64,000 bases of DNA from Aselliscus stoliczkanus (lineage: Eukaryota > Chordata > Mammalia > Chiroptera > Hipposideridae). Below are positions 5,201 through 54,721 of the stretch, in pieces; within the stretch, counting starts at the first letter, position 1, and each line of letters starts with the position of its first letter. The position numbers were made by a program, and so were the translations under genes. Where the stretch lies: contig CM066731.1 of the NCBI GenBank assembly GCA_033961575.1, forward strand, positions 79,567,501 through 79,631,500. The letters run 5' to 3'. Below the pieces are notes generated by a model, which saw only the letters and a program-made list of their open reading frames with translations, was not told the DNA's origin and did not search any database.

Positions 5201-6359
5201 ACAACACTAATGATCAGAGAAATGCAAATTAAACCACAAAGAGATACCACCTCACAGCTGTCAGGGTGGCTGTCATAAATAAATCAACAAACAATAAATG
5301 TTGGTGAAGATGTAGAGAAAAGGGAACCCTTATGCACTGTTGGTGGGATTGCAAGTCGATGAAGCCTCTATGGAAAATAGTATGGAGGTTTCTCAAAAAA
5401 TTAAAACAACTACCTTGTGACCTTCCACTCCTGGGTTTTTATCCAAAGAAATCCAAAACATTAATTCACAAAGGTATATGCACCCCTGTTTACCACGGCA
5501 CTATTCAGAATTGCCAAGAAATGGAAACAGCTGAAATGCCCATCAATAGATGATTGGATAAAGTGATATGTACATATAATAGAGTATTTCTCTTCCATAA
5601 AACAGAATTAAATCTTACAATTTGCGACAACATTAATGGGCTGATGGGGCATTATGCTAAGTGAAATAAGTCAGACTGAGAAAGACAAATATCATATAAT
5701 TTCATTTATATGTATAATCTAAATAACAAAACAGACACATAAAATTGAAACAGACTCCTAAATACAGAGAACAAACTGATGGTTACTAGACAGAAGGGAC
5801 ATTGGGGAGCTGAGTGAAAAAGGTGAAGGAATTAAGAAATACAAATTGGTAGTTACAAAATAGTCACCAGGATGTAAAGTACAGCATACAGAATATAGTA
5901 AATCATGTTGAAACAACTACGTATACTGCTAAGTGGATACTAGTCAGGGGAAATCATTTCATAAATTATATAAATGTCTAACCACCATCCTGTATACCTG
6001 AAACTAATATAAGATAATATTTTTTAATCTTTTATTGTGAAATAAACATTTTTTATTAGTTTCAGGTGTACAACACAATGCAATAGTTATACTTTTTACC
6101 CCTCAAAGTGACAACCCCCCTCCCCCAGTTTGCCACCCCATTCTTCCCCCCCATATCATACATATCTATTACAATTCCTTTGACTCCTTTCCACAGTATA
6201 CTCCACATCCCATGACTATCTATATATTCAGTTACAGTTGGCATACAATATTATACAACATCAGATTCAGTTGTACAGTGCAGTGATCAAGCCTCTACTC
6301 CATCCATGAAGTGGTCTCCCTAACAAGACATGTGATTATCTAACACACCACAAAATTTT

Positions 6360-6760
6360 TACAACATCATTATATTCCCCGACGTGTTTCATATCCCTGT
6401 GGCAATATTGTAGTTGTCTATTTATGCTGTCTAATCCCTTCCCCTTCTCCCTTATCCCCACCCACCCCCCTCCCAACTAGCAACCCTCATTTTTCCTCTA
6501 TATCTATGAGTCTGTTTACGTTGATCGTTCATTCAGTTTTCAGATTCCACATATAAGTGAGATCATATGGTACTTGTCTTTCTCCGACTGACTTATTTCA
6601 CTTAACATAATAGTCTCCTCACAATATTATCAATTGCATTTCCAAAACTGACCCCCATATCCCTGCGGCAACATTGTAGTCACCCACTTACACTGTCCAA
6701 AACCTTCCCCCTCTCCCTCATCCCCACTCCCTCCCAGCCAGCAACCATCAGTTTTTCCTT
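6360..6760 (-). repeat. Duplicated L1 3' segment in element #2
   Basis: Two diverged copies of one roughly 140-bp L1 3' UTR segment lie at about 6360-6497 and 6618-6759, separated by the ORF2 C-terminal coding end. On the element's sense strand each copy starts near GGAAAAACTGATGGTTG or its variant and runs through a G-rich stretch. The same arrangement is present in element #4 (29737-29878 and 29998-30140), which makes it a diagnostic feature of this derivative family. Confidence 0.75.
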
Positions 6761-6769
6761 TATATTTGC

Positions 6770-7356
6770 TTGATATGATTTCAATATTCTTAAATTTACT
6801 GAGACTTGTTTTGTGGCCTAACGTGGTCTATCTTGGAAAATACCTATGTCCACTTGAGAAGAATGTATATTCTGTTTTTTCAGGGTGAAATGCTCTAAAT
6901 ATATCGACGAAGTCCAGCTGGTCTAAAGTGTCATTTAAGGCCCCTCTTTCTGTGTTGATTTTCTGTCTAAAGGGTCTGTCCATTGGTGACAATGGGGTGT
7001 TGAAGTCCCCTACTATGATAGTGTTACTGTTGATCTCTGTCTTTATGTCTGTCAAAATCTGTTACACGTAATTAGGAGTTCCTATGTTGGGTGCATAGAT
7101 GTTCATTAGGATTATAGTGGCCTTCTTTGTCTTTTATTTTAGTCATTTTAAAGTCTATTTTGTCCAAAATAAGTACTGGTACTCCAGCTTTTTTTTCCTT
7201 CTCATTTCCATTTGCATAAAACATCTTATACCATCTGTAAACAGCATATACATGTGTCCTATTTCTTGTCCACTCAGCCACTCTCTGTCTTTTGATTGGA
7301 GCATTTAGCCCATTCACATTTAAAATGATTACTGATAGGTACATATGTATTGACAT
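6770..7356 (-). pseudogene. L1 ORF2 N-terminal remnant (element #2)
   Basis: This is only the start of ORF2. It keeps the NVNGL motif of the endonuclease, but a 47-bp deletion relative to L1 #5 removes the segment with the catalytic Glu (the QETHL motif). A second deletion of about 30 bp and a stop (the TAA before CAGATTTTGAC on the sense strand) follow. The GDFNTPLS motif survives. RT and C-terminal domains are absent, so no endonuclease or RT activity is possible. All three lesions also occur in element #4. Confidence 0.85.
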
Positions 7357-7412
7357 TTTATTATTTGTATTCCTGGTCTTCCTGGGTTAGTTTACTTACC
7401 CTTTTCTTTTGT

Positions 7413-8281
7413 TTAAAAAAGCCCTTTTAACATTTCTTGCAATGCTGGCTTGGTGGTAATGAATTCCCTAAGCTTATCCTTTTCTGAGAAGCTCTTTATT
7501 TCTCCTTCAATTTTAAGTGATAGCCACGATGGGTAGAGCAATCTTGGTTGTAGGCCTTTATTTTGTGTCACTTTGCATATCTCCTGCCACTTCCTTCTGG
7601 CCTGCAGAGTTTCTGTAAACAAGTCAGCTGTTAGTCTAATAGGAGTTCCTTTGTATGTAACCTGCTGTCTTTCTCTTGCTGCTTTTAGGATTCTGTCTCT
7701 GTGTTTAACCTTTGCCATTTTAACTATGATGTGTCTTGGTGTGGACCTGTTTGGGTTCAGCTTGTTTGGAACCCTCTGCACTTCCTGGGCATGTATGTTG
7801 ATTTCCTTCACCAGGGTAAGGAAGTTTTCAGCCATTATTTTTTCAAATACATTTTCTACCCCTTGCTTCTTTTCTTCTCCTTCTGGTATTCCTATGAGTC
7901 GTGGGTGGTTGCATATCACCTTGTCCCATAGGGCTCTTAAACTATTTTCATTGTTTTTTATTCTTTAGTCTTTTTGCTGTGCCAACTGGGTGATTTCTGC
8001 TATTTTATCTTCCAAATCGCTGATCTGCTCCTCCGCTTCATCTACTCTACTGGTGATTCCTTCAAGTGTGTCCTTCATTTCAGTTATTGTATTCTTTAGT
8101 TCTAATTGGTTGCTTTTTATGATTTCTCTATCCTTCCTTATGTCCTAAGTTTGTTAAACATTCTTATCATCAGTGTTCTAAACTCTGTCTCTGAAAGGTT
8201 GGATCCCTCTGTTTCATTTGGTTCCATTTCTAGAGGTTTCTTCTGATCTTTTACTTGTGACATGTTTCTTTGTTTCCCCAT
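7413..8281 (-). pseudogene. L1 ORF1, nearly intact (element #2)
   Basis: This encodes an ORF1p-type RNA-binding chaperone of about 290 residues. The longest open part (7413-7919) covers the RRM and C-terminal domain, with LIGIPEGEE, VTYKGTPIRLTAD and LQARRKWQEI motifs typical of L1 ORF1p, and ends LKGLF-stop. The N-terminal part (to the ATG at 8279-8281) is open separately, and a disturbance between about 7920 and 8140 breaks the coiled-coil section. It is clearly better preserved than the ORF2 remnant beside it, as expected for a family selected or recently propagated with ORF1. No expression evidence can be seen. Confidence 0.85.
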
Positions 8282-8481
8282 TCTGGCTGTCACTCTGGGA
8301 TTGCTTTGATGTACCAGATAGATCACCAGGAGAACCCTGGCTGGATCACATAGGCACACAACTCATGGCCCAACACTCCCAGGAATACTCCCAGTCTCAG
8401 CCTGTCCCAATCAGCCTCTTGCCAATCAGGCAGAGCAGCCTGACATCCAATCACCAGCCTGGCAACTCTGCAAGCACAGTG

Positions 8482-8722
8482 CGGAGAGTGGGGACCCGAG
8501 GCGGCTCGCGCACTCCCGTGTCTCAGTGAGCGGCCTGTTGGAGCTGGAGCACGCCCACCAGGCATTTCCTTGGCAACGCAGCACATGCCGTGCGGAGGGT
8601 GGTTATCCGAGGCGGCTCAAGCACTCCCGGGTCTCAGTGAGCAGCCTTTTGGAGCTGGAGGGCATCCACCCAGCGTTTCACTGGCAACACAATATAAGCC
8701 AGACGGAGGGTGGGGATCCAAG
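8482..8722 (-). repeat. Tandem ~111-bp monomers in L1 5' UTR (2 + partial)
   Basis: The phrases CGGAGAGTGGGGACCCGAGG, CGGAGGGTGGTTATCCGAGG and CGGAGGGTGGGGATCCAAG start at 8482, 8593 and 8704, a period of 111 bp. Between them the units align throughout (CTCAGTGAGC, GTTGGAGCTGGAG, TTGGCAAC blocks). Element #5 also has two full units and element #4 has one. The arrangement recalls the monomer-type promoters of rodent L1, though the unit is shorter. Confidence 0.88.
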
Positions 8723-8728
8723 TCTGCA

Positions 8729-8740
8729 TGCGCATGCGCA
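8729..8740. promoter_or_regulatory. NRF1-like palindrome in L1 5' UTR
   Basis: The sequence TGCGCATGCGCA is a perfect match to the palindromic NRF1 consensus YGCGCATGCGCR and sits just upstream (in L1 sense) of the monomer block. Element #4 has a degraded version, CGCGCATGCG at 27884-27893. Binding is inferred from motif only. Confidence 0.55.
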
Positions 8741-9471
8741 TGCACACACGCACTTCTGCGCCAATTCCACCAGACCAACGAGGTCCCTGACATGATCCTC
8801 TGTGGGAGCACCCAACCCTGACAAAATGGCGCCTTCCTGTACACCACTTGCGTGCACGCTCCACACCAGTGGAACAATAGTCCAAAAACCTCCAGCTTCT
8901 GTACCAAAGGTGCTCAGTTCAGTCCGTCCCTGCAGGCTCCTGGGCCCGGCTCTCACAGCTACTCCCTCCACCAGGAACCAGGTAAGTGTTCACCGGCGAG
9001 CAAGCCCGTGCACCGGCCCCACTGATTCTCTAACCGGTCTTAGTCTCACAGAGCTGAGCAAAGAGAGTCCTCACTAATTTACTGCCAGCTATCTTGGAAC
9101 TCCTCTTCCCAGCAAAGGAACTCTAGGCTGGTGAGCTTGGTGTGCGGCCGGAGGGTCTCTCCCCACAACCGGAGAAGCCTCCCCACAGCTGGGACCTCCC
9201 TCACGGGGTTCACCCTCTCTCATCTCCACCCGTCCTACCAGACTTGACGTGGCCTCCTCTTTAAGTTCTTCGTTTAGTGGTTCTGTTCATCTAGTGTTCC
9301 GGGGACCTCTGGGGTTGAATGTTGTATACATTGTTTGTAATTTTGGTGTGTTCCTGGGAGGTAGTTAGCACAGCGTCCAATATGAGATAATTTTGATTTT
9401 TCAACTTTAACTACAAAAAGAAATAAATAATTCTAAAAATGAATTTCTTATAAATGGATACAACATACTTT

Positions 9472-10606
9472 AAAAAATTTAGCTTTTTTTTGGGGGGGGC
9501 GTTTTCATTTTATTTATTTATTTATTTTTTTAAATTTTATTTATATATACTTTTAATTAACTTCAGGTGTACAACAAAGTGCAATAGTTATACTTTTTAC
9601 CCCTCAAAATGACAACCCCCCCAATTCTCCCCTCCCACTCCTCCCCCCCATATCATACTATCTATTATAATTCCTTTGACTCCCTTCCACCATATAATCC
9701 ACATCCCGTGACTGTCTATATATTCAATTACAGTTGGCATACAATATTATACAACATCAATTTCAGGTATACAGTGCAGTGATCAAGCCTCTACTCCATC
9801 CATGAAGTGGTCTCCCTAACAAGACATGTGATTATCTAACACACCACAAAATTTTTACAACATCATTATATTCCCCGACGTGTTTCATATCCCTGTGACA
9901 ATACTGCAGTTACCTATTTATGCTGTCTAATCCTTTCCCTTTCTCCCTCATCCCCACCCTTCTCCCAACTAGCAACCCTGTTTTTCCTCTATATCTATGA
10001 AACTATGCATATGAAAAAATGTTCAACCTCACTAATCATCAGAGAAATGCAAATAAAAACCACAATGAGATATCACCTCACTCCAGTCAGAATGTCTATC
10101 ATCAACAAATCAACAAACAACAAGTGTTGGCGAGGGTTTGGAGAAAAGGGAACCCTGGTGCACTGTTGGTGGGACTACAAATTGGTTCAGCCATTATGGA
10201 AATCAGTATGGAGGTATCTCAAAACACTGGAAATGGAACTGCCGTATGACCCAGCAATTCCACTCTTGGGAATCTACCCAGAGGAATCCAAGACGCTAAT
10301 TCAAAAAATATATGCACCCCTATGTTTTTTGCAGCGCTATTTACAATAGCCAAGATTTGTAACAACCGAAATGCCCATCGGTAGATGACTGGCTTAAGAA
10401 ACTGTGGTACATTTATACAATGGAGTATTACTCCGCTATAAAGAAGAATGAAATTGTACCATTTGCAACAATATGGATGGACCTAGAGACTATTATGTTG
10501 AGTGAAATAAGTCAGTCAGAGAAAGACAAATACCACATGATCTCACTTATATGTGGAATCTGAAAAACTGAATGAATGAGCATAAGAAACAAAAAATTTA
10601 GCTTTT
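9472..10606 (-). mobile_element. Twin-primed (5'-inverted) L1 insertion, element #3
   Basis: A perfect 16-bp target-site duplication, AAAAAATTTAGCTTTT, flanks the insertion (9472-9487 and 10591-10606). Inside, 9488-10000 is an L1 3' end in reverse orientation, starting with a T-rich tail. At about 10001 the sequence switches to forward L1 ORF2 C-terminal text running to about 10583. An inverted 5' piece joined to a normal 3' piece is the signature of twin priming during target-primed reverse transcription. Only a few tens of bases of L1 are lost at the switch. The perfect duplication suggests a fairly recent event. The ORF2 piece is non-functional. Confidence 0.92.
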
Positions 10607-10619
10607 AAAAACATTAAAG

Positions 10620-11110
10620 TGTTAGTCTGTGCATGGGCATATATTTCATATTTCTTGGGTAAATACCTAGGACTGTAATTGCTAGGTAATATGCTAATTG
10701 TACATTTAACATTATAAATTCATTATAAATTTGCAAAACAACTTCCCAAAATCATTATACCATTTTACTATCCACTAGGAATGTATAAGAGTTCCAGTTG
10801 TGCTATAGTCATGCAAACATTTAACTATTGTCAAAATTTTTTATTTTAGCTGTTTCAGGGGTATGCATAGGAGTACCCTATTTTGGTTTTAACTTGCATC
10901 TCCCTGCTGACTAACCACAGTGGCAAAATTTTTACGTACGTATTGGCCATTCATACCCCTTCTTTTGTTCAGTTGTTGTTCAAGTGTTTTGATGATTATT
11001 TTAATTGGCTAGTTGCCTCATTATTGAATTGTAAAAGGTCTTTATATATTTGTATACAAATGTTATGTTAGAAATATTCATTGAGATTATAGTCTCCAAT
11101 TCTGGACCAT
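10620..11110 (-). mobile_element. Ancient L1 fragment (ORF2 3' part), reverse
   Basis: Reverse-strand text such as TTTTAACTTGCATCTCCCTG and TATTGGCCATTCATACCCC matches the well-known antisense look of the L1 ORF2 C-terminal region. It is strongly diverged, truncated on both sides and has no reading frame. Confidence 0.7.
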
Positions 11111-11129
11111 ATCACATTTATTAAATTCC

Positions 11130-11425
11130 CTTTTTGAATATTTTAATTAAAATATAGCTAATATACAATATTATATTATTTTCAGATATACACAATAGTT
11201 AGTCAACATTTATATACCTAAAGAAGTGGTGATCACCATGGTAAGTCCAGCGTACATCTGACACTGTACCATGTTATCATAATATGATTGACAATATTTC
11301 CTATGCTGTATATATTACATCCCTATGACTTATTTGTTTTATACCTGGAAATTTAAACTTCTTATTCTCCATCACCTTTTCTTCTCTATTTTAATTTTCC
11401 AATTACAGTTGACATTCAATATTAT
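11130..11425 (-). mobile_element. Ancient L1 3' UTR fragment, reverse
   Basis: The stretch reads as the reverse of an old L1M-type 3' UTR (ATTTTCAGATATACACAATAG and GTGGTGATCACCATGGTAAG portions). It lies on the wrong side of the preceding ORF2 fragment to be one continuous element, so it is a separate or rearranged insertion. Confidence 0.6.
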
Positions 11426-11820
11426 GCTGAGTGGAGTAAATCATACATAGAAAGACAAATATCATACAATTTCACTTATACACTGAATCTAAAGAACAAA
11501 ATAAACAAACATACAAAACAGGAACAAATTCATGAATACAGAGAACATTTTGATGGTTCCCAGATGGGAGGGGGTTGGGAGCAAGGTGAAAAAGGTTAAG
11601 GGATTAAGAAGTACAATTTAGTAGTTAGAAAATAGTCATGGGAATGTAAAGTAAAGCACAGGGAATATAGTTAATAATATGGTAATAACTATGTATAGAG
11701 CCAGGTTAGTACTAGACTAGTCAGAGAAATCACTTCTTAAGTTGTATAAATGTCTAGCCACTATACTTTATGCCTGAAATTAATATAAAATGATACTTCA
11801 ACTGAAATTTAAAAATTAAA
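11426..11820 (+). mobile_element. 5'-truncated L1 3' end, forward
   Basis: It starts within the ORF2 C terminus (ATTATGCTGAGTGGAGTAAA) and runs through the 3' UTR (GGTAATAACTATGTATAGAG) to GCCTGAAATTAATATAAAA. It is an ordinary dead-on-arrival L1. Confidence 0.8.
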
Positions 11821-11869
11821 AATGTGGTAGGAAATAAGTTGAAGGGGAATAAGAGGTCCAAAATTCCAG

Positions 11870-12065
11870 GTATAAACAAATAAGTCATGGGGATGTAATG
11901 TACATCATAGGGAATATAGTCAATAATATTGTGATAGTATGGTACCATTTCAGATGATTGCTGGACTTATCAAGGTGATCACTGTTTTAGGTATATAAAT
12001 GTTGAATAACTATGGAGTACACCTGAAACTAATATGTTAGCTATACTTTAATAAATATCTTTAAA
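11870..12065 (+). mobile_element. Second truncated L1 3' UTR, forward
   Basis: It repeats the 3' UTR motifs GGGAATATAGTCAATAATAT, GGTGATCACTG and ACACCTGAAACTAATATG, ending in an A-rich tail. It is an independent short insertion next to the previous one. Confidence 0.75.
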
Positions 12066-12098
12066 AACAACAACAACAAAAAACCCCAACCTTTCATT

Positions 12099-12547
12099 GC
12101 AAATATTCTTTTTTTTTTTTTAAAGACTTTTATTGGGGAATTGGGGAAGGGGAACAGTGTTGGGGAATTGGGGAAGGGGAACAGCCAAGTTGCTGTCCTT
12201 CAATCATAGCTGTGGAGGGCACAGCTAGCTCAGCTCTAAGTCCAGTTGCCATCTGGCCGACCATCGGCAGCTCATGGCCGCTCAGCTCAAGGTGCTTTGG
12301 GTTCAGTGTTAGTTGCAGTTGAGCGTAGCCCACCATTCCATGTGGGAGTTGAACTGGCAGGCAACCTTGTTGATAGGAGCACGTGATCTCACCAGCTAAG
12401 CCATCCTGTCACCTGTTGGCAGCTCAGTGACAGCTCAGCTTGGGCGTAGCTCACCGGCCCATGTAAGAATAGAACCAGCGACCCTATTGCTCAGAGCTCT
12501 TGCTCTTAACCAACTGAACCACTTGGGCAGCCCGCAACTATTCTTTT
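12099..12547 (-). mobile_element. Composite dimeric SINE, reverse
   Basis: The body at 12113-12533 is flanked by near-identical duplications, GCAAATATTCTTTT on the left and GCAACTATTCTTTT on the right. Reading the minus strand, there are two tRNA-like heads in series: one with TTCAGTTGGTTAAGAGC and one beginning after GGATGGCTTAGCTGG. Then follows the T+ SINE 3' module and a tail with two copies of a CCCCTTCCCCAATTCCCCAA-type unit and AATAAAAGTCTTT. It is thus longer and more complex than the other SINEs here and may be the form from which type B was cut. Confidence 0.85.
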
Positions 12548-12807
12548 AGAACAAACTTAAAGAAATTAATATTATATGTATACACATAGTCCCTACTCCA
12601 GGAGATTAAGCTAATCTTTCCTTCCCTTCAGCATGGACTGGGCTTAGTGACATGCTACAAAACATGTAGTATGGAAAGTGAAAATTAGTAAACACAGTCA
12701 ACAAATCTCATTGACATTACCTTATCAAAGAAATGGAGGTTATATATACTCTGTACTAGCTTTGGAACTTTTCTGTAACTCTAAACGTATTCCAAAATAA
12801 AGTTCAA
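12548..12807 (+). mobile_element. Ancient L1M-type 3' end, forward
   Basis: The ending ACTCTGTACTAGCTTTGGAA and CCAAAATAAAGTTC resembles the 3' end of an old mammalian L1M-age repeat. It is highly diverged; the family name is uncertain. Confidence 0.5.
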
Positions 12808-12955
12808 TTTTTTTTTTTTTCTTAGCTGAGCCATCTTGCCACCTGTTGGCAGCTCAACGGCAGCTCAGCTCAGGCTGGCATCAAACTACTATTGTTCAGA
12901 GCTCAGCTAGCACTCTTGAGTGAGCTCTTAACCAACTGAGCCACTCGGCCAGCCC
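12808..12955 (-). mobile_element. tRNA-like SINE (type B), reverse
   Basis: The minus strand reads GGGCTGGCCGAGTGGCTCAG, TTGGTTAAGAGCTCACTC and the GAGCTGCC core, ending in a T-rich tract on the plus strand. It is the same type as 2041-2195. Target duplications are not clear. Confidence 0.82.
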
Positions 12956-12964
12956 AAGGTTTAC

Positions 12965-13990
12965 TTTTTAAAAGGGGGAAAAAAAATGTGCCAAAGTCCT
13001 TAACAGACACCTCATCAAAGAAGGTCAACAGATGACAAATTTTGAGATAAGAAAAGATGGTCAACATCACATGTACTCAGGGGAAGGCAAATTAAAACAA
13101 TAAGATACCACTAAGACAATTAGATGCCACTCTTTGCTTATTTAAATGGTCAAAATCCAAAACATGAAAACACCAAATGAGTGCAAAGCAACAGGAACTC
13201 TCATATATTGTTTGTGGGAATGCAAAACTGCATATAATTTGGAATATAGTTTGGCTGTTTTGTTTTTTTTTACAAAATAAAACATACCTTTAACATACAA
13301 TCCAGCAATCACACTCTTAGAATTGCACCCAGAAGAGCTGAAAATGTTTGTCCACACAAAAACCTGCACACAGATATTTATAGCAACTTTAGTCATAATT
13401 GCTACAACTTGAAAGCAACCAAATATCTTTCAGTAGATGAATGGATAAATAAAACGTGGTTAATCCACAAAATTGAGTATTATTCAGGGCTAAAAATAAA
13501 TGAACTACGAAGCCATGAAAAGACAGAAACTTAAAAGCATATTGCTAAGTGAAAGAAGCAAATCAGATAGGGCTACATGGTATATAATTTCAACTGTAGG
13601 ATATTCTGAAAAAGACAGAAATATAGAGACAGTAAAATGATAAATGGTTGGTGGAGGAGGAAAGGTATGATTATGTGGAGCACAGAGGATTTTTAGAGCA
13701 GTGAAAACGTGCTGTATGATACCATAAGGATGGATACATGTCATTATATATTTATTCAACACCATAGAATGTACCAAGAGTCAATTATAATGTCAACTAT
13801 TGGTTTTGAGTTATTAGGATGTGTCAATACAGGTTTATCAGTTGTAACAATATTGTTTCTAATGGGGATATTGATAAAGGGGGAGGCTGTGCATGTGTTG
13901 GGGAAGGAGGTATATGAGAAATCTGTATCTTCCTCTTATTTTGCTATAAACCTTAAACTGTTCTAAGAAAGTCTTAAAAATCTGTAAACA
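12965..13990 (+). mobile_element. Ancient L1 (ORF2 C terminus and 3' UTR), forward
   Basis: It contains degraded L1 text for the end of ORF2: AGACACCTCATCAAAGAAGG, TTTATAGCAACTTTAGTCAT, and GTAGATGAATGGATAAATAA. A diverged 3' UTR follows to about 13990. No frame remains. Confidence 0.75.
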
Positions 13991-14527
13991 TAATACTTGT
14001 AATAGCTGTTTGAAATTCTTCACCTCTAATTCTATCACCTCTGTCATTCATGGGTCCATTTCTAATAACTGAATGTTACATAGTTGTGAGTCACAATTTG
14101 CAGCATCTTTGCATGTCAAATGCAATGGACATTGTGTTGTATCACTTTAAAGAGTGCTGATGTTTGCTTAGCCAGGGAATTAAGTTATTCTAGATTAGGT
14201 TGAGCCATTCATGATTCGTTTTAATCTTTGTTTAGGTAGGTCTAGTGTAGCCTTTATTCTAGTACTATTTTACCTATATTGTGAATAAGTGACTTTTTCT
14301 GTTTCTATTGAATATTCAGTCTTTAGTGTGATTTATCTTGTCTAGCCAGACAAAATTCATACATCTCTCAACCATAATGAACTCTGGGAAATGATTTTCT
14401 TTGTAACTCCTCAAATGTTGTTCTTTATCTGATCTCACAGAATTTCTCCCTAGCCATGTACAGATTAGTGTCCAGCCAAATATTCATGAAAAACATCTAT
14501 GAAGATTTCTGAAGCTTTTGCCGAGTA
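13991..14527. other. Probable ancient repeat or single-copy sequence, left of mariner 1
   Basis: No gene was seen. Phrases such as CACCTCTGTCATTCATGGGT have the look of an old L1-age repeat, and similar text seems to resume at 15104-15360, as if the mariner split it. The family was not identified. Confidence 0.4.
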
Positions 14528-15101: not shown

Positions 15102-15103
15102 TA

Positions 15104-19608: not shown

Positions 19609-19639
19609 ATGATCAAGTAGATCAACCTGTGAATAAAAA

Positions 19640-19768: not shown

Positions 19769-19805
19769 AGTGGCTTGTGAGAATATGGGGCAATGTTGCC
19801 CATTT

Positions 19806-19950
19806 AGACCACTGGTTCTCAAAAACCAGCATGTATCAGAATCACCTAAAGAGCTTGTTAAAACATAGATTATGGGCTCAGCCCCAGAGTTTCTGGTTCC
19901 CAGGTGATGCTAATATACCTGGTTTATGCACCACAGTTTGAGAAAAAAAA
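19806..19950 (-). mobile_element. MER20-like hAT element, second copy
   Basis: GGTTCTCAAAAACCAGCATG, ATCAGAATCACC, GAGCTTGTTAAAACATAG and CACAGTTTGAGAA match the reverse MER20 order. It is shorter than the first copy because of internal losses. Confidence 0.7.
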
Positions 19951-22207
19951 ACACTGGTTTCCAAGGCTTGAACCAATCCAGTTTTATCATTGGAGCTGGA
20001 GAAAGACTTCCCTCCTGAAAGCATATGGACTCAAGATGGAAGACAGCTCTCTGTATACAATCTGTGTCCCGTTTGAAAATAAAAAGTGGGGAGGAAATGT
20101 CATTAGGGATGTGATCCACAAGTTCTGCTACTGTTCATATTCAGACAGCTTATCTGGCCAGTGGACCTTAATGACCAGTGCTGATTAGAGCGTGAGAGGG
20201 AGATGTCAGAGGCCAGAGCAGTCATTTTGATTGTGAGGTAAGACACTGAGAGGAAACCCTGCTGCAAAGATCTGCAAGCATGGGACTGGGGAGCAGAATT
20301 TAGGGTTAAGACTTCTATTGCCCCTTCTCTCTGCCTCTGACCCTGTGCCCCAATCCTGCACAGCAACATCCTTACATCTTAGATTTTTGCCACCTTTTAG
20401 CAGCTACATGTAATAGAGAAGTTGGGGACAGAGAGATGTTGTGAGCCTGCTCAGGGTGACAACAAGGTCATCATTGTACACAGATATGTGGACCAAAGCA
20501 AGGGAAGGTGGGAAAGGTGAAGAGTGATGGACTGAAACACAGCTACCTTGTTATTCACAATCAGCCTGACAATTATAAAATGTCCAATACAAATTTTGGA
20601 ACTTTAAGCAGATTATGCTTTCTACATCTCCTTCTGTGTGAGGGAGGAGAGCAGGTGGATCATAGTGGTGGTTAGAAGGACATACACAGATTTAGCATAG
20701 AGAGAAGAAAAGCATCCCCTCCCATGGAACCAAGTCTTCCTACCTGTTATGAAAAGGCTCAGCCTCCAGGATCACCTCTGTACACTACCAAGACAAACCT
20801 GACTTTCCCACATGGCCCAACTTGAGTTCTACCAGCTTTATGCCAGTCCTCCCACCCAACCCCATCACAATATCATCTGTTTCCTAAATCTTTTGTATAT
20901 TTAATCCTGTGCTGTCTTTTACTGTGCCATCATTTATTTTTTAGGTGGGAAGTCTGATTGCTGCAACAAAACTGCAAAACTCTGTTAGTTCCTACTAGAG
21001 TATAATAGGACTATGTTTCCATTTGTTTCCCTCATGCCAGGCCAATAGACTATCTTCAAATAGCCACATCCATCCTTCACTGAAAGAAAAGCACCATATG
21101 AAACACATGGAAATTAAGGATAAAGCTATGGAGCAACTATGCATTGAATCCTTCATTCCTTCACCTACTTGTGTAACACTGTGCAATTTAACCTCTCGTC
21201 ATTCCAGTACTCTTCTGTTGGGAAGAGGATGGTTGTTTTCAGAATCAGAGACAATGTATGCAAAAGGCCTGGTACCAAACCTTTCAAAAGGTAGCACAAA
21301 ATAAATGTAACAATTCTTAAATTACTAAAAGATCAACATATGGATATACCCTCTGTGTCACAGGCCAATGTACACTTAGCCTGTGAACGCAACTCTCCTG
21401 GTTCTCCCAGCCATCCACCTCATAGCTCATTATTTCCATTATAAATCTGTCTGATCCGTCATACATGCCTTTGCCTTTGTCTTGCCTACTTCCGATGCGG
21501 ATTTCCTCTTTATTCTGGAAATAGATCCCCATGTGCATCTTCTTTGATAGCATGCCTCCCAGTTGCATTCAGTCTACTCCCCATCACTAGGACACTTCTA
21601 CCTGGATTCCCTGGAGGCATCACTCACAATGAAATCAGTCTACATTGCAAATGTGGCTCAAGTCCCTAAGAATGCCTGCTACCTCTGACATCACAACACA
21701 ATTTTCCTGCCAACTCATAACTTAGTTAAGGAAATTGGAACACAGGCAGCAAGGTAGGAATATGTGAGCTGAGGCAATGGGCTTGCATTTTGGAAAGTCA
21801 GCTCCCTCTCAAACACATACCTCTTTGTAACTTCTCCATCTCCCATTATTCTCCTCTATTGAAAACAATTACTTGAATGCCTTTGGACTCACCAGGTAGG
21901 CTACACTTTTCTCCTTGGCTAATTTTTATCATTATACTTGGGCTTTCATTGGTAGGTTCTTAATTAGGTCTTTGCAGTATCTGTGGCAGATTAGCCCACC
22001 TGGTTTCACAGGCCGTGGGAAGTCTGTGGCATTGCTGGAACATGACGCTGGCAAGTCTGCTCCTGTCCTGTGACCAGAAACAAAGAAACGTCTACTGTGT
22101 AGAATATTTCCAACCTTTTCAAATCTCTTGGGCTTCCAACTTATCCAGATGATGCTTCTCACTCTGAAGTATTCAGGACTCTGAGAACGCAGAATTTAAT
22201 TTAAACA
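19951..22207. other. Single-copy non-coding sequence
   Basis: No gene, RNA gene or clear repeat is supported. Several 60-95 codon frames on both strands lack splice context and any family resemblance. Confidence 0.55.
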
Positions 22208-22290
22208 TATTGGGTTGTCGAAAAAGTCATGACCTATTTTTTTCTGTTTTTCATTGCAAAAATGGGTCATGACTTTTTGACAACCCAATA
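22208..22290. mobile_element. 83-bp palindromic mariner-type MITE, copy 1
   Basis: The element starts TATTGGGTTGTCGAAAAAGT and ends with the inverted counterpart GACTTTTTGACAACCCAATA. The ~25-bp terminal inverted repeats differ by one indel, and the central loop is short. The TA ends and the TATTGGGTTG start are typical of mammalian mariner MITEs. A second 83-bp copy lies at 62002-62084. Confidence 0.88.
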
Positions 22291-22398
22291 AATCTCTGCA
22301 GATTTAAAAAAAGGATCCCAATGTTTCCATACATTTAAGCTCATGGATTTTGTTTACAGGAGAGTTCTGCAGGCCTTCCTTCACATAATCCATTTACT

Positions 22399-22501
22399 CT
22401 TTTTTTTGAGGGCAGTGTCACTGGCCCTCATATGTGGGACCCGAGCTGGGGCCGCTGGCTTCCCAAGCCAGCGCTTAACCACCGTGCCACTCAGCCAGCA
22501 C
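22399..22501 (-). mobile_element. Short tRNA-like SINE (type A), reverse
   Basis: On the plus strand it opens with a T tract, then GAGGGCAGTGTCACTGGCCC and CTGGCTTCCCAAGCCAGCG, and ends TGCCACTCAGCCAGC, the exact reverse of the type A SINE at 700-815. Target duplications are unclear. Confidence 0.88.
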
Positions 22502-22894
22502 CTTACATAGTCTTTTAATAACCTTGAGTATCTGGCGTCCCAGTCCAAGCCCAGTTAGAAATAGCAAATTAGAGGAGACAATAATCTTAGAAGTTTGCCC
22601 TCTAAGAATAGGAAAAGACAGCTGATAGGAAAGTAAGAAGACAAAAAATGCTGAAAACAAGCAGACAGCTTTTCCATCCCCTCTGCCATTCCCTTCAACC
22701 CTCCTTACTGTTCTCTTTGATGATTGCAACTACCTCCTATTGGTGATGGGGCCTGCCTTCACTGGAACTGATTCCTAGAAGTGTTATTATAGTCATCTGC
22801 CTGTGAAAGAAACCATAAGCTACACTTGCTTTAATGCCTCTGTTGCACTAGTTTTGCCTCCAGGACACTGTTTTGAAATGTACCCAGAATTTGG

Positions 22895-23545
22895 TTTTTT
22901 TTCAGGTGTGTTGAGGCCAACTGCTCAGGAAAAGACAGCTATTAAATGATAGTTTGTTACTCACGGTTCCAAAGAGGAAGGGGCACACCATGCAAGGAAC
23001 ACGGGAATCACCAGGGTTGGTCAGGAGGCAAAGGAACAGGAAAACATAAGCAGGAGGCTATATGCAGTTTTCATTGAAAGGAATAAGTGAGAAGGGCCAG
23101 CTGCCAAGTGGGTTTAGAATTGGCTAGTTTGAATAATTGCAGCAGACTCTGGATGGTAGGGGTGGACCCTAGTTATCTGATTGCTGGCCTTGGAGTGATT
23201 TAGGGAAGGGGTAATGTGTCAGAGACTTCAGGAGCCTGACATGAGAAAGCAGGTGGGGGTATGAATTTGGGATCGGTTGATTGCATATCAAAAGCATGCC
23301 TACAAGGGCTGGCCGAGTGGCACAGCGGTTAAGCGCTGGCCTTGGAAGCCAGCGGCCCCGGTTCGGTCCCACATATGAGGGCCAGTGACACTGCCCTCCA
23401 AAAAAAAAAAAAAAAAAAAACTACAAAAGCATGCCTACAAGCAGGTAGTTTACTCTCCCTAGGAATTAGCTATCCCAGGAAGGGCAGTCTCTCCAGGATC
23501 AGCAGCCAGGCCCCAAGATATCAAAGCATCAGGAAATAAAATTTT
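22895..23545. repeat. Possible old LTR-like repeat, split by a SINE
   Basis: The text around 22910-23280 and again 23441-23540 (GTCAGAGACTTCAGGAGCCT; GGGCAGTCTCTCCAGGATCA) resembles common mammalian LTR sequence, but I cannot name the family or find its ends. The type A SINE at 23306-23423 interrupts it. Confidence 0.3.
23289..23440 (+). mobile_element. Young short SINE (type A) with perfect 17-bp duplications
   Basis: Perfect flanking duplications CAAAAGCATGCCTACAA (23289-23305 and 23424-23440) enclose a type A SINE at 23306-23423 with an uninterrupted A tail of about 20. The tRNA-like head has GTGGCACAGCGGTTAAGCGC and the box B-like GGTTCGGTCCC. The clean tail and perfect duplications mark a recent insertion, probably polymorphic or lineage-specific. 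Confidence 0.95.
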
Positions 23546-23579
23546 TTTTTAAATGATTAATACAGAGAAAGCTGTTCTT

Positions 23580-24075
23580 CGTTAGGATCAGAGGCCATTC
23601 CCGCTCTGCTTCTGCACATCTTTCTCAGCCTCATCTCCAGCCACCCTCCAGCACACCCCAGGTTCCAGCCACACAACTCTCCTCCACCTGCCGCAAGCTA
23701 CCCACACTCTTGCCCCTTCTGTGGCTTTTCATATATTGTTCCATGTGCTGGGAATTCTCTTCCTTACATTATTCACCTAGCAGACCTACCTGGAGCCTTC
23801 AGCAAAGCCCCTCATATTCCCTGAGTTCCTTTGGTACACACACATTTTCTTTCCTTAATTTTTCATTCAATGTGTTCTATATTTCAATGGCATTTAACAC
23901 TTAATAAGTTGTACATCATTTGCCTGTTAATATGTGTGTGTCTCTATCACCAAAACAGGAGTCTTGTAAGTAGAGACTGCCATGTCTGTCTGTGTTGCCT
24001 CATTGACTAGCATACACATATAGGGTAGGCATCACAGGCACATACCTAGTATCAGTTGAATGCATGACAGACTTA
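23580..24075 (+). mobile_element. LINE-2 (L2) 3' end
   Basis: C-rich text with CCAGCCACACAACTCTCC, TTCCATGTGCTGGGAATTCT, CTACCTGGAGCCTTCAGC and the terminal TTGAATGCATGA follows the L2 3' region in order. L2 is a pre-placental repeat, so this stretch is old and has been in place since before bat radiation. Confidence 0.82.
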
Positions 24076-25621
24076 TGCCCTTTCATGTAGATGTGAGCAG
24101 CCATATGAACTTGAATAGCTTACAAGGGTTCCATCAAATTAAGGTAAAACTGCTTGGCTTTCCATTAGGACTCAAACTTGGAGGCAAGTGGCCTGATAAA
24201 AACAGGATTTATTTGTGAAGCTAAAATCATCCTTAATCTCAGGAGTTTGATTGGTTTGGGTTTTAGAAAGCTGATTTTTTTAGACTGAAGACCTAGTTCC
24301 TAACTCCCCACCCCCCAACTCATAGTTCAACTAAAATGTATATGGCTGGCTTAAAGGGAAGAAGCAGGGAGGCTCACTTTAAGTATGTGTTGAATGTGTT
24401 AGAACCAACACTCTGTTTCATTTAAATAGTAACATGAGAGAAGTTTAGCTTTTGGTTGGATGAAGAATCTGGAATCACCCTGAGGAAGGAGGGAGATTTG
24501 GGATGGCAGCTGGCTTTTTCTATCACCACTGAAATCATACCATGTGGAGATAGTCTGATTTTGCCTTTGAATTATTGAGGATGAAGTAACAAACTATTAG
24601 TTTAATCCTCCTAAGCTCCTCCTAGATCTGTTGATGAAGTGTAAGTGACACATGATATTGTCAGGAAGAAGTTATACCATATTTGTCATTACTCAAACGG
24701 AGGTGTATTTTTTTCAGTCTAGTTTATATGAGACTCCCCACAAGGCAGTTTACAAACTTCCCTTCATAGAAGGAGCAATTGCTGATCCTGCAGGACTAGT
24801 GTTCATTTCTGTAAAAGAAAAGTGTCAAGGAACTTTATACACCTATCTGTATGCATGAATACATTTATTATGTATGTCTTATATATACATGTGTATACAC
24901 ATATGAGAGAAAGAGATAGATATAGAGAAATGGAGGTATAAGAACACACCTGTTTTGGTTCTAAATCTACTCAAATTAACTTTAAACATTTTCAAACAAA
25001 CTTGTACTTCTGTAACCTAAAAAAAAAAAAATGTGACTTGAGATGTTTGAAAGAGTGTAAAAGACATTTTGAAAACAAAGTGATGTAGGCTGTAGAGTTT
25101 GTCTTTCTCCATGATATTTTCATAGATCAAATGAGGATAAGCATGTGGACATGGAAAACAGTCTATTGGCAAAAATGACCTTGACTGCAAAAAAAAAAAA
25201 AAAAAAAAGACCCCAGATTAACATCTTGGAACTCAGCCTTGGAATTATGGCACACTACACTTAAGTCAAGAGCAAATGACCAACTGTTTTGTGGTTGCTC
25301 TTCCCGAAAGTATTCCTAAGCACAACTGATTTGTAAGAACAAAAGAAGATAATTAAGTGCTGGAATAGATTTGATTTATTAAGCATAGGATTATTTCTGA
25401 CATTTATAGTGTTGCTCAGAGAGTCCAGAGCTGGAAAATATGTGTTCATTACTTTGTGTGATGTTTATATAAGAGAAGGAGACATGACCTGGGGCAAATA
25501 TGACAAACTGTAATTTGGTCTCCAGTTCTCCTCTCCCTGGGAGTTCTTGTCAGCTCTATCTCCTTTCTTCACAAGAGCCAGGACTCTCATGTGCTTTCTC
25601 TACACACCATATCAAAATATT
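24076..25621. other. Single-copy non-coding sequence
   Basis: No gene was seen. It holds two A-runs (25019-25031 and 25190-25208) that could be tails of undetected short insertions, but no head sequence was recognised. Confidence 0.5.
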
Positions 25622-25691
25622 TTAACACATTGTGCACTGGTGACACAGATTTGCATCTATGTATTTAAATGCCCCGTCCTCAATGTGTTAA
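25622..25691. mobile_element. 70-bp piggyBac-like MITE candidate
   Basis: TTAACACATTG at 25622-25632 is the perfect inverse of CAATGTGTTAA at 25681-25691, and both outer ends are TTAA, the obligate target of piggyBac transposases. The repeat extends imperfectly for two more bases. There is no coding capacity. Size and ends fit an internally deleted piggyBac derivative, but chance cannot be excluded from one copy. Confidence 0.55.
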
Positions 25692-25820
25692 CTTTTATTT
25701 TAAAAGAATTTAGAATTTAAAGAAAAAATGCAAAAATAAAAACAGTATGAAAAATACCCATGTACCATTTACCCAGATTGACTGATTGTTAACATTTTAT
25801 TTATTTTCTTTATCATCTGC

Positions 25821-25860
<40 letters not shown>

Positions 25861-26740
25861 ATTTGAGGGCAAGTTAAACACATCAACCCTTTTGCCATAA
25901 ATTCTTCAGTGCATTTCCTAATAACAGGGATATGCTCTTACACAAGCACACTGTAAATATCCACTTCAGGAGATTTAACATTGATATTGTACTTTTATGT
26001 AACCTATGATTCTGATCTAATTTTATCACTTGACTCTATGATGTACTTTATAGTGCTGTTCCCTTCTAGTTTATGATCCAGTAGAGTCAGGTACTCCATT
26101 TAGTTGTCATATTTCTTGGCCTTCTAATCTAGAACATTTCTACAGCCTTTTTTTGACTTTCATAACATTGTTGTTTTTAAAGAATACAATCTCCCCTTTT
26201 TTATAATATACAATGTTTCTCATCCTGTATTTGTCTGATGTTTCTTAACCATTAGATTGAGGCCATGTATTCTTGTAATACTGCATAGTTGATGTGTTTC
26301 TCTCATGGTATTCCATTTTTATGGCCATCTGTCCTTCACAGGTGAAGTTAATTTTGGTCACTCAGTCAAAGAGTTTCCCAATTTCTCTACCATAAAATCT
26401 CTGCCTCCCATTATACTAACAAGCAGATTGTAGAGAGACATTCTAAGACCACATAAATATCCTTCTCCTTATCATCCATTGATGATTCTTGTCTGGTTGC
26501 AAAGTGATTTTTTTTAACTCTAGCACTGACTCTACATTTAATAGGTGGCCTTCTGCATTCTACTGTGATTCCTCTGTACAATTTATCTATCATCCATATT
26601 AACTCATAAGTTCCCATTGTAATGGTTTATAACTCATTGTTGCACTTTATTGGATTCTCAAATTGTTCCATATTTGCCTTGTGAAAATCCATTCTATGTC
26701 CTTGTAACATGTTTCCACCATTAAAAAAAAACACATTTCT
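25692..26740 (-). mobile_element. Ancient L1M-type 3' region, reverse (probable)
   Basis: Phrases such as TTAGTTGTCATATTTCTTGG, TCTAGAACATTTCTACAGCC and GTCTGATGTTTCTTAACCAT match a very common old mammalian repeat in antisense, which I take to be an L1M-age 3' region. It is much diverged and interrupted by a TATC microsatellite. Confidence 0.5.
25821..25860. repeat. (TATC)n microsatellite
   Basis: Ten uninterrupted TCTA/TATC units occur here. The purity suggests current length variation. Confidence 0.97.
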
Positions 26741-27202
26741 TACTTTCTAGTCTACAAGATGCCCCAAGCTCATTTTCTACCTAGCTTGCCCAGCCTTGAA
26801 ATAATTTCTCTGCTTTGTCTGGGTGCATTTTAATGAGGATGTATTAGAGACCAAGAAAAGAGCATTAGCTGTGCTCACCGATACTAGGATGGCTTTGCTT
26901 CCTGGCTCTTTCAGCAGACAGAAATAGGAAACAACTGCTTATTGTTCACATAATGTGCACATACATACGGATATGCACATAAGCATACAGGTGCAAATCC
27001 ACATACATCTTTTGGAAATCCTGAGTTCATATCAACACCTTCAATTCTAATTCACCTCTTTCATATTTTTATGTTGCTTCTTCTGTAGGGTGAACCTTGG
27101 CTCCCAACAGCCTCAACAAATCTATTTATTTGCTCAATTTTATATTGTTTTAAAAATAGCTCTGGAAATATGCCTATATGTCTAAAGTAAACAAACCTAT
27201 TC
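26741..27202. other. Single-copy non-coding sequence
   Basis: No gene or clear repeat was found between the old L1 remnant and L1 element #4. Confidence 0.5.
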
Positions 27203-27212
27203 AAAAGTTCAG

Positions 27213-28218
27213 GAGGAACTTCGGGTAAAATGGTGCAATAGACAGACGCTGTGCTAACTGCCTCCCAGGATCACACCAAAATTACAAGCAAATTATACAG
27301 CATTCAACCCTGGAAGTCCCCGGACCACTGGAAGAACAGAATCACTAAACGAAGAACTTAAAGAGGAGGCCACGTCGGGTCTGGTAGGATGGGCGGAGAT
27401 GAGACAGGGCGAACCCCGTGAGGGAAGCCCCAGCCGTGGGAAGCTTCTCTGGTTGGGGGAGAGATCCTCCGGCCACACACCAAGCTCACCAGCCCAGAGT
27501 TCCTTTGCTGGGAAGAGGAGTTCTAAGATAGCCGGCAGTAAATTAGTGAGGACTCTCTTTGCTCAGCTCAGTGAGGCTAAGAGCCGCTGGAGAATCAGTG
27601 GGGCCAGAGCCTGGGCTTGCTCGCTGGTGAGCACCTACCTGGTTCCTGGTGGAGGGAGTGGCTGTGTGAGCCGGACCAGGGAGCCTGTGGGGACGGACTG
27701 TACTGAGCACCTTTGGTGCAAAGGCTGGAGGTGTTTGGACTGTTGTTCCTGTGGTGAAGAGCCTGCACACGAGTGGTATATGGAGGGCGCCATTTTGTCG
27801 GGCTTGGGCCCTCCCACAGAGGATCAGGTCCGAGACCTCATTGGTCTGGTGGAATTGGCGCAGAAGTGCGTGTGTGCGTGTACGCGCGCATGCGGCCTTG
27901 CATCCCCACCTGGCTTATACTGCGTTGCCAGGGAAACACTGGGCGGGTGCCCTCCGGCTCCAACAGGCTGCTCACTGAGACGCGGAAGTGCACAAGTCGC
28001 CTCGGGTCCCGCTCTCCGCACTGCGCTTGCAGAGTTGCCAGGCTGGTGATTGGTTATCGGGCTGCTCGGCCTGATCTGCGAGGGGCTGATTGTGACATGC
28101 TGAGACTGGGAGTTTTCCTGGGAGTGTTGTGCCGTGAGCTGTGTGCCTGCATGATCCAGCCAGGCCTGTCCTGGTGATCTATCTAATACATCAAAGCAAT
28201 CCCAGAGCGACAGCCAGA
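27213..28218 (+). promoter_or_regulatory. L1 element #4 5' UTR / internal promoter
   Basis: A GC- and CpG-rich leader with a complete 5' end. It contains one ~105-bp monomer (27906-28010) plus a partial one, a GGCGCCATTTTGTC-type YY1/E2F-like site near 27786 and a weakened NRF1-like site at 27884-27893. The 5'-terminal YY1-like core is mutated here (AAAATGGT) relative to element #5 (AAGATGGC). A sense-strand reading frame of 216 codons (27399-28049) stays open through most of it. Confidence 0.7.
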
Positions 28219-29086
28219 ATGGGGAAACAAAGACACATGTCACAATAAAAGATCAGAAGAATCCTCTAGAAATGGAACTAAATGAAACAGAGGGATCCAA
28301 CCTTTCAGAGACACAGTTTAGAAGACTGATGATAAGAATGTTTAAGGAACTTAGTGAGGACATAAAGAAGGATAGGGAAACCATAAAAAACAACCAGTTA
28401 GAAGTAAGAATACAATAACTGAAATGAAGAACACACTCGAAGGAATCACCAGTAGAGTAGATGAAGCAGAGGAGCGGATCAGCGATTTGGAAGATAAAAT
28501 AGCAGAAATCACCCAGTTGGCACAACAAAAAGACCAAAGAATAAAAAACAATGAAAATAGTTTAAGAGCCCTATGGGACAAGGTGAAACGCAACCACCAA
28601 CGACTCATAGGAATACCAGAAGGAGAAGAGAAGCAAGGGGTTGAAAATGTATTTGAAAAAATAATGACTGAAAACTTCCCTACCCTAGTGAAGGAAATCA
28701 ACATACATGCCCAGGAAGTGCAGAGGGTTCCAAACAAGCTGAACCCAAACAGGTCCACACCAAGACACATCCTAGTTAAAATGGCAAAGGTTAAAGACAG
28801 AAACAGAATCCTAGAGGCTGCAAGAGAAAGACAGCAGGTTACATACAAAGGAACTCCTATTAGACTAACAGCTGACTTGTCTACAGAAACTCTGTAGGCC
28901 AGAAGGGAGTGGCAGGAGATATCCAAAGTGACACAAAATAAAGGCCTACAACCAAGATTGCTCTACCCAGCACGGCTATCACTTAAAATTGAAGGAGAAA
29001 TAAAGAGCTTCTCAGAAAAGAATAAGCTTAAGGAATTCATGACCACCAAGCCAGCATTGCAAGAAATGTTAAAAGGGCTTTTTTAA
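28219..29086 (+). pseudogene. L1 ORF1, nearly intact (element #4)
   Basis: This encodes an ORF1p-type RNA chaperone of about 288 residues, starting at the ATG in the CAGCCAGAATGG context and ending LKGLF-stop at 29084-29086. The main open part (28424-28897) covers the end of the coiled coil (RVDEAEERISDLEDKIAEI) and the RRM with LIGIPEGEE and VTYKGTPIRLTAD. One early stop near residue 11 (CAATAA) and one at the former LQARREWQ motif (TGTAGG) break it. These look like simple point mutations, so the source copy was probably open throughout. Confidence 0.87.
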
Positions 29087-29143
29087 ACAAAAGAAAGGGG
29101 TAAACAAGCTAACCCAGGGAGACCAGGAATACAAATAACAAAA

Positions 29144-29730
29144 TGGCAATACATATGCACCTGGCAATAATCATTTTAAATGTGAATGGGCTAAATGCTC
29201 CAATCAAAAGACAGAGTGGCTGAGTGGATAAGAAAATAGGACACATGTATATGCTGTTTACAGATGGAATAAGATATTTCATGCAAATGGAAATGAGAAA
29301 AAAAAAAGCTGGAATACCAATACTTATTTTGGACAAAATAGACTTTAAAATGACTAAAATAAAAGACAAAGAAGGCCACTATAACCCTAATAAACATCTA
29401 TGCACCCAACATAGGAACACCTAATTACATATAACAGATTTTGACAGACATAAAGACAGAGATCAACAGTAACACTATCGTAGTAGGGGACTTCAACACC
29501 ATTGTCACCAATGGAGAGATCCTTTAGACAGAAAATCAACACAGAAAGTTAGGGGCCTTAAATGATACTTTAGACCAGCTGGACTTCATTGATATTTTTG
29601 GAGCATTTCACCCTGAAAAAACAGAATATACATTCTTCTCAACTACACATGTGTCATTTTCCAAGATAGACCATGTTAGGCCACAAAACAAGTCTCAGTA
29701 AATGTAAGAAGATTGAAGTCATATCAAGCA
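29144..29730 (+). pseudogene. L1 ORF2 N-terminal remnant (element #4)
   Basis: It keeps the endonuclease NVNGL start and a GDFNT motif but lacks, compared with L1 #5, a 47-bp piece that includes the QETHL catalytic Glu, and a second ~30-bp piece. A stop precedes the CAGATTTTGAC phrase. All these lesions are shared with element #2. RT and Cys-rich domains are entirely gone. A non-coding role in packaging or RNA structure is possible but untested. Confidence 0.85.
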
Positions 29731-29736
29731 GATATA

Positions 29737-30140
29737 AAGGAAAAACTGATGGTTGTTGGCTGGGAGGGAGTGGGGAAGAGGGAGAGGGGGAAGGTTTCGG
29801 ACAGTGTAGATGGGACTACAATGTTGCTGCAGGGATATGGGGGCAGTTCTGGGAATGTAATTGATAATGTTGTGAAGAGACTATTATGTTGCGTGAAATA
29901 AGTCAGTCGGAGAAGGACAGGTACCATGTGATCTCACTTGTGTGTGGAGTCTGAAAAGCTGAATGAACAATCAAAGTAAACAGACTCGTAGATGTAGAGG
30001 AAAATCTGAGGGTTGCTAGTTGGGAGGGGGGTGGGGATAAGAGGGAAGGGGAAGAGATTAGACAGCATAAATAGGCAACTACAATATTGCCACAGGGATA
30101 TGAAACACAGTTCAGGGACTATAATAACGTTGTAAAAATT
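29737..30140 (+). repeat. Duplicated L1 3' segment in element #4
   Basis: Copy A (29737-29878) and copy B (29998-30140) are diverged duplicates of one L1 3' UTR segment. Between them lies the ORF2 C-terminal end (GAGACTATTATGTTG to ATCTCACTTG). The order is the same as in element #2. Confidence 0.78.
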
Positions 30141-30499
30141 TTGTGGTGTTTCAGATAGTCACATGTCTTGTTAGGGAGACCACTTCATGGATGGAGTAGA
30201 GGCTTTACCACTGCACTGTACACCTGAAGCTGATGTTGCATAGTATGGTATGCCAACTGTAACTGAATATGTGGATGGTCACGGAATGTGGAGTATACTG
30301 TGGAGGGGAGTCAGGGGAGTTGTGATAGATATGTGTGATATGGGGGGGAGTGGGGTGGCAAACTAGGGGAGGGAGTTGTCACTTTGGGGGTTAAAGAATA
30401 TAACTATTGCATTGTGTTGTAGACCTGAAACTAATAAAAAAAAATGAAAAAAAAAATAAAATCTTAGGAATAAATTTAATAATAAAAAAAAAAGGTCAG

Positions 30500-48040: not shown

Positions 48041-48091
48041 TATCAACTTGCAATAATATGAGGAGAATCTGGGCATTAAGATATAATATAA

Positions 48092-50512: not shown

Positions 50513-50568
50513 ACAGAAGAAAGGGGAAAACAAGCTAACCCTGGAAGACAAGAAATACAAATAACAAA

Positions 50569-54673: not shown

Positions 54674-54721
<48 letters not shown>

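Follow-up and report, generated by a model that had tools for sequence, protein, structure and literature searches.

The window analysed here is a stretch of 64,000 nucleotides from the bat Aselliscus stoliczkanus (GenBank assembly GCA_033961575.1, contig CM066731.1; C5:79567501-79631500 in our numbering). It contains two L1 copies that keep the first open reading frame (ORF1) and lack most of the second (ORF2). Element #2 is located on the minus strand at 6021..9378 and element #4 on the plus strand at 27213..30489. They belong to an older and a younger stratum of their family, with terminal branches of 4.7% and 3.0%, respectively. A full-length but decayed L1 at 48091..54919 on the plus strand, in which alignment and domain matches identify an intron-like segment and the endonuclease and reverse transcriptase (RT) regions, was used as the structural reference. 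Elements #2 and #4 are 91.1% identical to each other (2931/3216 alignment columns) and 83-84% identical to this L1. The original prediction, made from the window alone, regarded the two elements as an ORF1-only, non-autonomous L1 family. Its bounds for #4 are retained, whereas the 3′ end of #2, placed at 6019, lies instead at about 6021, with 6020-6006 being target-site duplication. The 5′ end of #2 lacks the first ~31 nt.

Shared deletions and separate insertions

Three deletions within ORF2 had been noticed in both elements, together with a stop codon and a 3′ duplication, and the comparison with the full-length L1 bore out all of them. A 47-bp loss (reference 50690-50736) removes the QETHL motif that carries the endonuclease Glu, as had been predicted, at 7232..7242 (minus) in #2 and 29256..29267 (plus) in #4. 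A 31-bp loss (reference 50844-50874) is found at 7121..7132 (minus) and 29365..29375 (plus). The large ORF2 loss comprises ~3.18 kb, from 51221 to ~54402 of the reference; the alignment of #2, #4 and the L1 splits this gap, and the extent given is that of the window self-comparison. Its junction, also counted genome-wide below, lies at 6760..6780 (minus) in #2 and at 29720..29746 (plus) in #4. The common stop codon is found before CAGATTTTGAC.

At the 3′ end a piece of ~145 nt of the 3′ untranslated region (UTR) is followed by a restart at the end of ORF2. The two 3′UTR pieces are 81% alike within each element and 91-93% alike between #2 and #4, and the duplicated arrangement is therefore older than both insertions. 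The first, diverged piece (6618..6765, minus, in #2; 29730..29876, plus, in #4) may, at 81% likeness to the second, be an old duplication or have its origin in another L1 sub-family.

A fourth common loss was overlooked in the original prediction and is here considered the most informative feature. It comprises 439 bp of the 5′UTR (reference 49165-49603), lies between splice sites and joins CCTG to GTGATC at 8322..8333 (minus) in #2 and 28168..28179 (plus) in #4. Upstream of it are promoter-type monomers of 111 bp, present in ~2 copies in #2 (8482..8716, minus) and in about one fewer in #4, whose promoter activity is putative.

Elements #2 and #4 are separate L1 insertions. The 5′ target-site duplication of #2 (9379..9393, minus; 3′ partner 6006-6020) matches in 13 of 15 bp, a score equalled by 1 of 400 random windows. 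That of #4 (27203..27212, plus; 3′ partner 30490-30499) matches in 9 of 10 bp and abuts the element start, but is weak by itself since 56 of 400 random windows, freed of the position constraint, score as high. In agreement with the prediction that the flanks differ, only scattered repeat pieces of the flanks align, mostly inverted or out of register.

Copy number, family tree and sub-lineages

Exact patterns were counted in the source genome of 2.19 Gb (146 contigs). The 25-nt ORF2 junction occurred 4,131 times, the 24-nt spliced 5′UTR junction 3,656 times and the unspliced acceptor pattern 666 times, and the reversed-pattern control gave 0 in each case. Exact matching gives an undercount of decayed copies. 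The predicted family thus exists, and the possibility that the junction is confined to these two copies fails on its 4,131 occurrences. Among viral contigs 32 pattern stretches matched, and none was confirmed as a relative.

A set of 61 copies was compared, consisting of #2, #4 and 59 others from the genome. Of the latter, 39 were the best matches to #4 (40 were scored from among 4,556 candidates, #4 itself included), and the other 20 came from contig C1, where they headed a list of 60 planned junction places, one member of a pair 113 bp apart being omitted. The spliced probe matched at 0.85 or more in 50 of the 61 copies. The remaining 11 matched neither the spliced nor the unspliced form well (best 0.69) and are devoid of the site, their family sequence beginning downstream of it or, in L046, skipping it. 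All 51 copies that keep the endonuclease remnant match the 47- and 31-bp deleted forms. Odd probe scores were obtained for L059 and L062, which gave no clear junction score (0.69 to the unspliced probe in L062), and for L038 (0.91 to the undeleted 47-bp probe); these are presumably neighbouring or truncated elements.

A tree based on ORF1 alone was poorly resolved and was for that reason replaced by one encompassing 5′UTR/ORF1 and 3′ sequence from 46 of the 61 copies (15 left out) and the window L1. The resulting phylogeny of junction-bearing copies is a ladder, with terminal branches of 6.1% for L050, 4.7% for #2, 3.0% for #4 and 1.1-3.0% for seven short-form copies. If neutral substitution proceeds at about 2.2e-9 per site per year, the ages of the tips would range very approximately from 5 to 28 million years. 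The seven short-form copies cluster (basal support 0.11; six of them at 0.89), have the same ~577-nt deletion of the ORF2 remnant and keep ORF1. Such a ladder is the pattern that one lineage of successive source elements growing shorter would leave. A third deletion of the remnant, by which the stretch surrounding the common ORF2 junction is lost, is present in both L088 and L094 and hints at another sub-lineage.

A single insertion from which a local, inverted segmental duplication produced #2 and #4, or independent deletions that happen to coincide in the two, has a negligible probability: the two lie ~18 kb apart in opposite orientation in the window self-comparison, as a duplication would allow, but their flanks do not align as a unit, their target-site duplications differ, the junction is found thousands of times and the two stand at different depths of the tree, and segmental duplication as the origin of the pair was rejected on flanks and genome counts.

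The linkage of the two junctions was followed at the first 84 spliced places on C1. An exact ORF2 junction was located downstream in 58 of them, at the distance of the short form in 27, at that of #2 and #4 in 22 and at others, up to 2.9 kb, in 9; two of these nine are the copies L050 and L052, both carrying the ORF2 junction. Twenty of the other 26 places were sampled and every one was ORF2-deleted (9 short, 9 long and 2 with the third deletion). The ORF2 deletion was accordingly present downstream in 78 of 78 checked places, the 9 at unusual distances being less certain. In 7 of the 58 pairs the spacing was 1.7-2.9 kb instead of ~1.0 or ~1.55 kb (C1:95275065-95277954 and six others, one of the seven being L050); such pairs could represent forms with less deleted, insertions that came later, or elements lying next to each other.

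Splice signals at the 5′UTR loss

The segment missing from #2 and #4 is found in the full-length L1 at 49165..49603 (plus) and resembles an intron, reading CTG/GCGAGT ... TTTTTTCTAG/GTGATC and ending in a long pyrimidine tract before the acceptor. The acceptor score ranks first among the 4,691 AG sites on the plus strand of the window. The donor, G[C/T]GAGT in full-length L1s, is among the best 0.24% of 5,390 GT/GC sites when its second base is ignored.

Eight more intron-bearing L1s, the first 8 of the 666 exact matches to the acceptor pattern (TTCTAG/GTGATC), were inspected. The TTCTAG is in these present by construction, since the loci were chosen by that pattern; the pyrimidine tract upstream of the pattern letters was found in all eight. 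All eight also contain the 47-bp stretch, and ORF2 is clearly retained at the junction site in seven, the eighth, L074, being unclear. Six donors were readable (five of the eight and the window L1), four with GC, one reading GTGAGT and one mutated. On C1, a contig of 208 Mb, 31 of the 68 listed sites of intron-bearing L1 5′UTRs fall within C1:101.8-111.8 Mb.

As both ends of the 439-bp loss coincide with splice signals, the founder of the family is best inferred to be the copy of an RNA from which splicing had removed the segment that separates the monomers from ORF1. Three observations detract from a spliced founder. The donor of the window L1 scores 3.9 bits as GC, against 10.5 if it were GT. 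The sampled intron-bearing L1s are not direct parents: the donor and acceptor that exactly bound the loss were read in relatives standing in for the parent L1, with 80-86% identity to #4 over the main aligned stretch. The older L1 at 1-5861 is without similarity to the intron of the window L1 and cannot polarise it.

The alternative that the family is real and the 439 nt were lost by an ordinary deletion, or by a 5′UTR recombination that mimics splice sites, is improbable. L1 5′UTRs are described as being replaced in evolution (PMC5753468), and the older L1 in the window does have an unrelated 5′UTR. The other losses of the family are furthermore not at splice sites: no equivalent placement of the 47- or 31-bp loss yields GT/GC...AG, for which reason splicing was rejected as their cause, and the large ORF2 loss and the ~577-nt loss, with junctions read by eye, are not at splice sites either. 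Splice signals nevertheless coincide with both ends of the loss, the acceptor being the highest-ranking one on the plus strand of the window and the donor, its second base ignored, being among the best 0.24%, and the pyrimidine tract precedes the same acceptor in the eight other L1 copies.

ORF1 and its selection

ORF1 of #2 (7413..8281, minus) has one frameshift and one stop, and that of #4 (28219..29086, plus) has two frameshifts and one stop, the longest open piece of the latter ORF1 showing RBD-like and trimerisation domains. The prediction of a nearly open ORF1 was in this respect generous. None of the lesions is common to the two elements. In an alignment of the 51 copies that span ORF1 (10 of the 61 were dropped), the majority frame is open over 290 amino acids (aa) in each of three age groups (oldest, middle, youngest), and 13 of the 51 copies are fully open. 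The product of L049 displays the complete trimerisation, RBD-like and dsRBD-like domains of the L1 ORF1 protein (ORF1p). The best named matches are from bats, Myotis myotis and Molossus molossus; Cnephaeus nilssonii matches at 58% over 100% of the query and Rhinolophus ferrumequinum at 72% over 77%.

The ratio of nonsynonymous to synonymous rates (omega) of ORF1 was 0.59 on internal branches (51 nonsynonymous and 32 synonymous changes, no stops, p 0.014), and that of the endonuclease remnant ranged from 0.72 to 1.30 on such branches depending on the frame. The trunk of the tree accumulated 45 ORF1 substitutions and 0 fixed lesions against 4.3 expected (P 0.013), the absence of lesions being judged from majority frames that are open in the old, the middle and the young group alike.

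A number of results count against such selection. The difference between internal and terminal branches reached only p 0.056, and the terminal branches, expected to be neutral, had an omega of 0.87. The P value for trunk lesions climbs to 0.052 on the assumption that alignment noise accounts for half of the frameshifts. On the deep branch from L1 to the family, ORF1 (0.57) did not differ from the endonuclease (0.63, with 89 codons skipped). A count of shared against singleton alleles gave p 0.022 for ORF1 with alleles in at least 3 copies and 0.13 with at least 5, and this test is not clean because apparent constraint (p 0.001) was seen as well in one frame of the endonuclease remnant, which is dead. 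The tree based solely on ORF1 assigns 3 stops to internal branches and gives omega values of 0.63 (internal) and 0.83 (terminal), differing at p 0.095. Three frameshifting ORF1 deletions are each common to 2-3 copies. Selection for keeping ORF1 in cis, as originally proposed, is likely, on evidence that is suggestive only: the internal-branch and trunk tests speak for it and the deep branch does not.

ORF1 might instead be a passive passenger, descended from a few long-lived source loci with an open ORF1 as are processed pseudogenes from their genes, its product unneeded and unselected. This is unlikely, though it deserves more weight than the two alternatives above. The weak or mixed selection signals suit it, and full-length L1s could supply ORF1p in trans. 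The majority ORF1 has nevertheless remained open from the oldest through the middle to the youngest group, across a trunk with its 45 substitutions, and at least two sub-lineages meanwhile shed more of the ORF2 remnant.

Mobilisation

Of 52 copies, 25 have target-site duplications, compared with 1 of 304 mismatched pairings, and TT directly precedes the duplication in 8 of the 25. Such duplications are a signature of L1 target-primed reverse transcription, and insertion by the L1 machinery is supported by them. As the elements are without ORF2, the ORF2 protein (ORF2p) would have to come in trans from full-length L1s, by which we infer the family to have been mobilised. As to a source of ORF2p, 150 of 41,656 RT candidates were scored: their open frames of up to 1,081 aa speak for such a supply, and the lack of a full-length open ORF2 among these 150 counts against it. 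Transcripts of a marked Alu placed under an RNA polymerase II promoter are reported to need ORF1p (PMC2666806).

Relation to HAL1 and other L1-derived elements

By its defining features the family is of the HAL1 (half-L1) type. Like HAL1s it is derived from L1, has lost ORF2, keeps ORF1, is multi-copy and is non-autonomous. The protein is encoded by the 290-aa majority frame, fully open in a quarter of the spanning copies (13/51) and with the L049 domains, and the amplification by independent insertions is evident from the 4,131 junctions, the target-site duplications in 25 of 52 copies and the tree. The original prediction of a convergence with HAL1 was right, but the case is less novel than was implied, because several independent origins of HAL1s have already been described (PMC5753468, citing Bao and Jurka 2010). 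In guinea pig and marmoset, HAL1s are among the families reported as young (PMC3183009), and rat HAL1s are stated to keep an internal promoter (PMC8535693). The present family differs in its separate origin from a bat L1 lineage, perhaps in its founder, which carries a precisely spliced 5′UTR, and in stepwise deletions of the ORF2 remnant that can be read from its copies. The spliced founder and the legible series of losses set it apart as a HAL1 variant.

The 5′UTR loss is of the kind known from human SpIREs, in which a segment between donor and acceptor is missing within the 5′UTR and is fixed by retrotransposition of spliced L1 RNA (PMC5860796). Larson et al. describe these as promoter-compromised and generally dead-ends (PMC5860796), and a further round of movement is reported for one human SpIRE that had borrowed the promoter of a gene (PMC13174262). 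As in SpIREs, the loss is here bounded by a splice donor and an acceptor. Human SpIREs, however, lose promoter elements, whereas here the monomers lie upstream of the intron; furthermore, ORF2 is gone and the copies number thousands. A SpIRE is otherwise a full-length L1 with ORF2. The founder would have arisen in the manner of a SpIRE, but the ORF2 deletion at all 78 checked C1 places (9 at unusual distances) keeps the family from being classed as one. A SpIRE-like founder that amplified looks new; searches of listings limited to the open-licence literature turned up neither a spliced founder for any HAL1 nor a HAL1 from bats.

SVA, LAVA and processed pseudogenes are likewise moved by L1 proteins in trans (PMC7353768, PMC2666806). 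The ORF1-only family differs from these three in encoding ORF1p. To our knowledge, none of them encodes an L1 protein.

Other features of the window

A 5′-inverted L1 insertion adjoins #2 at 9507-10595. Its 3′ end on the minus strand (9507-10000) is joined to an inverted segment (10007-10595) that matches the full-length L1 at 53807-54393, contiguous with the end of the 3′ part, and it looks like twin priming. An 87-bp palindrome at 62000-62086, with an arm match of 83% and beginning TATATTGGGTTG, resembles a mariner-type MITE.

Proposed evolutionary history of the family

The history of the family may be depicted as follows. An L1 RNA would have been spliced within the 5′UTR, with the 439 nt between monomers and ORF1 taken out, and then reverse-transcribed. 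The spliced copy would have stayed transcribable because the monomers, its putative promoter, lie upstream of the intron, and for the same reason the founder probably amplified. Most of ORF2 would have been lost in the same or later steps. The lineage would thereafter have spread as a succession of source elements that shed the ORF2 remnant repeatedly while ORF1 stayed open, probably because a transcript made by RNA polymerase II needs ORF1p, which prefers its own RNA. Throughout, the endonuclease and reverse transcriptase of ORF2p from full-length L1s would have inserted the ORF1-only copies in trans. In this reconstruction the polymerase II promoter, the splicing, the supply of ORF2p and the need for ORF1p are each presumed.

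Given the directly observed thousands of copies with common deletions, the independent insertions, the copies with an intact ORF1 and the ladder-like tree, we consider it very likely that #2 and #4 belong to a single large family of the HAL1 type, founded from spliced L1 RNA and served by ORF2p in trans. The fuller account has a somewhat better than even chance of being correct: that a spliced founder gave rise to a prolific ORF1-only lineage, which through a long series of source elements kept ORF1 under selection and shed ORF2, ending as a compact parasite, promoter and ORF1, of the ORF2p of full-length L1s.

The family would then offer a readable route for the birth of half-L1s, by 5′UTR splicing, small endonuclease deletions, the large ORF2 loss and further trimming, of which the later stages remain countable in the copies. 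The view of spliced L1 copies as dead on arrival would need qualifying, in that their fate should depend on whether the promoter lies upstream of the intron. The question of whether a parasite of L1 must carry its own ORF1 is by this family made testable.

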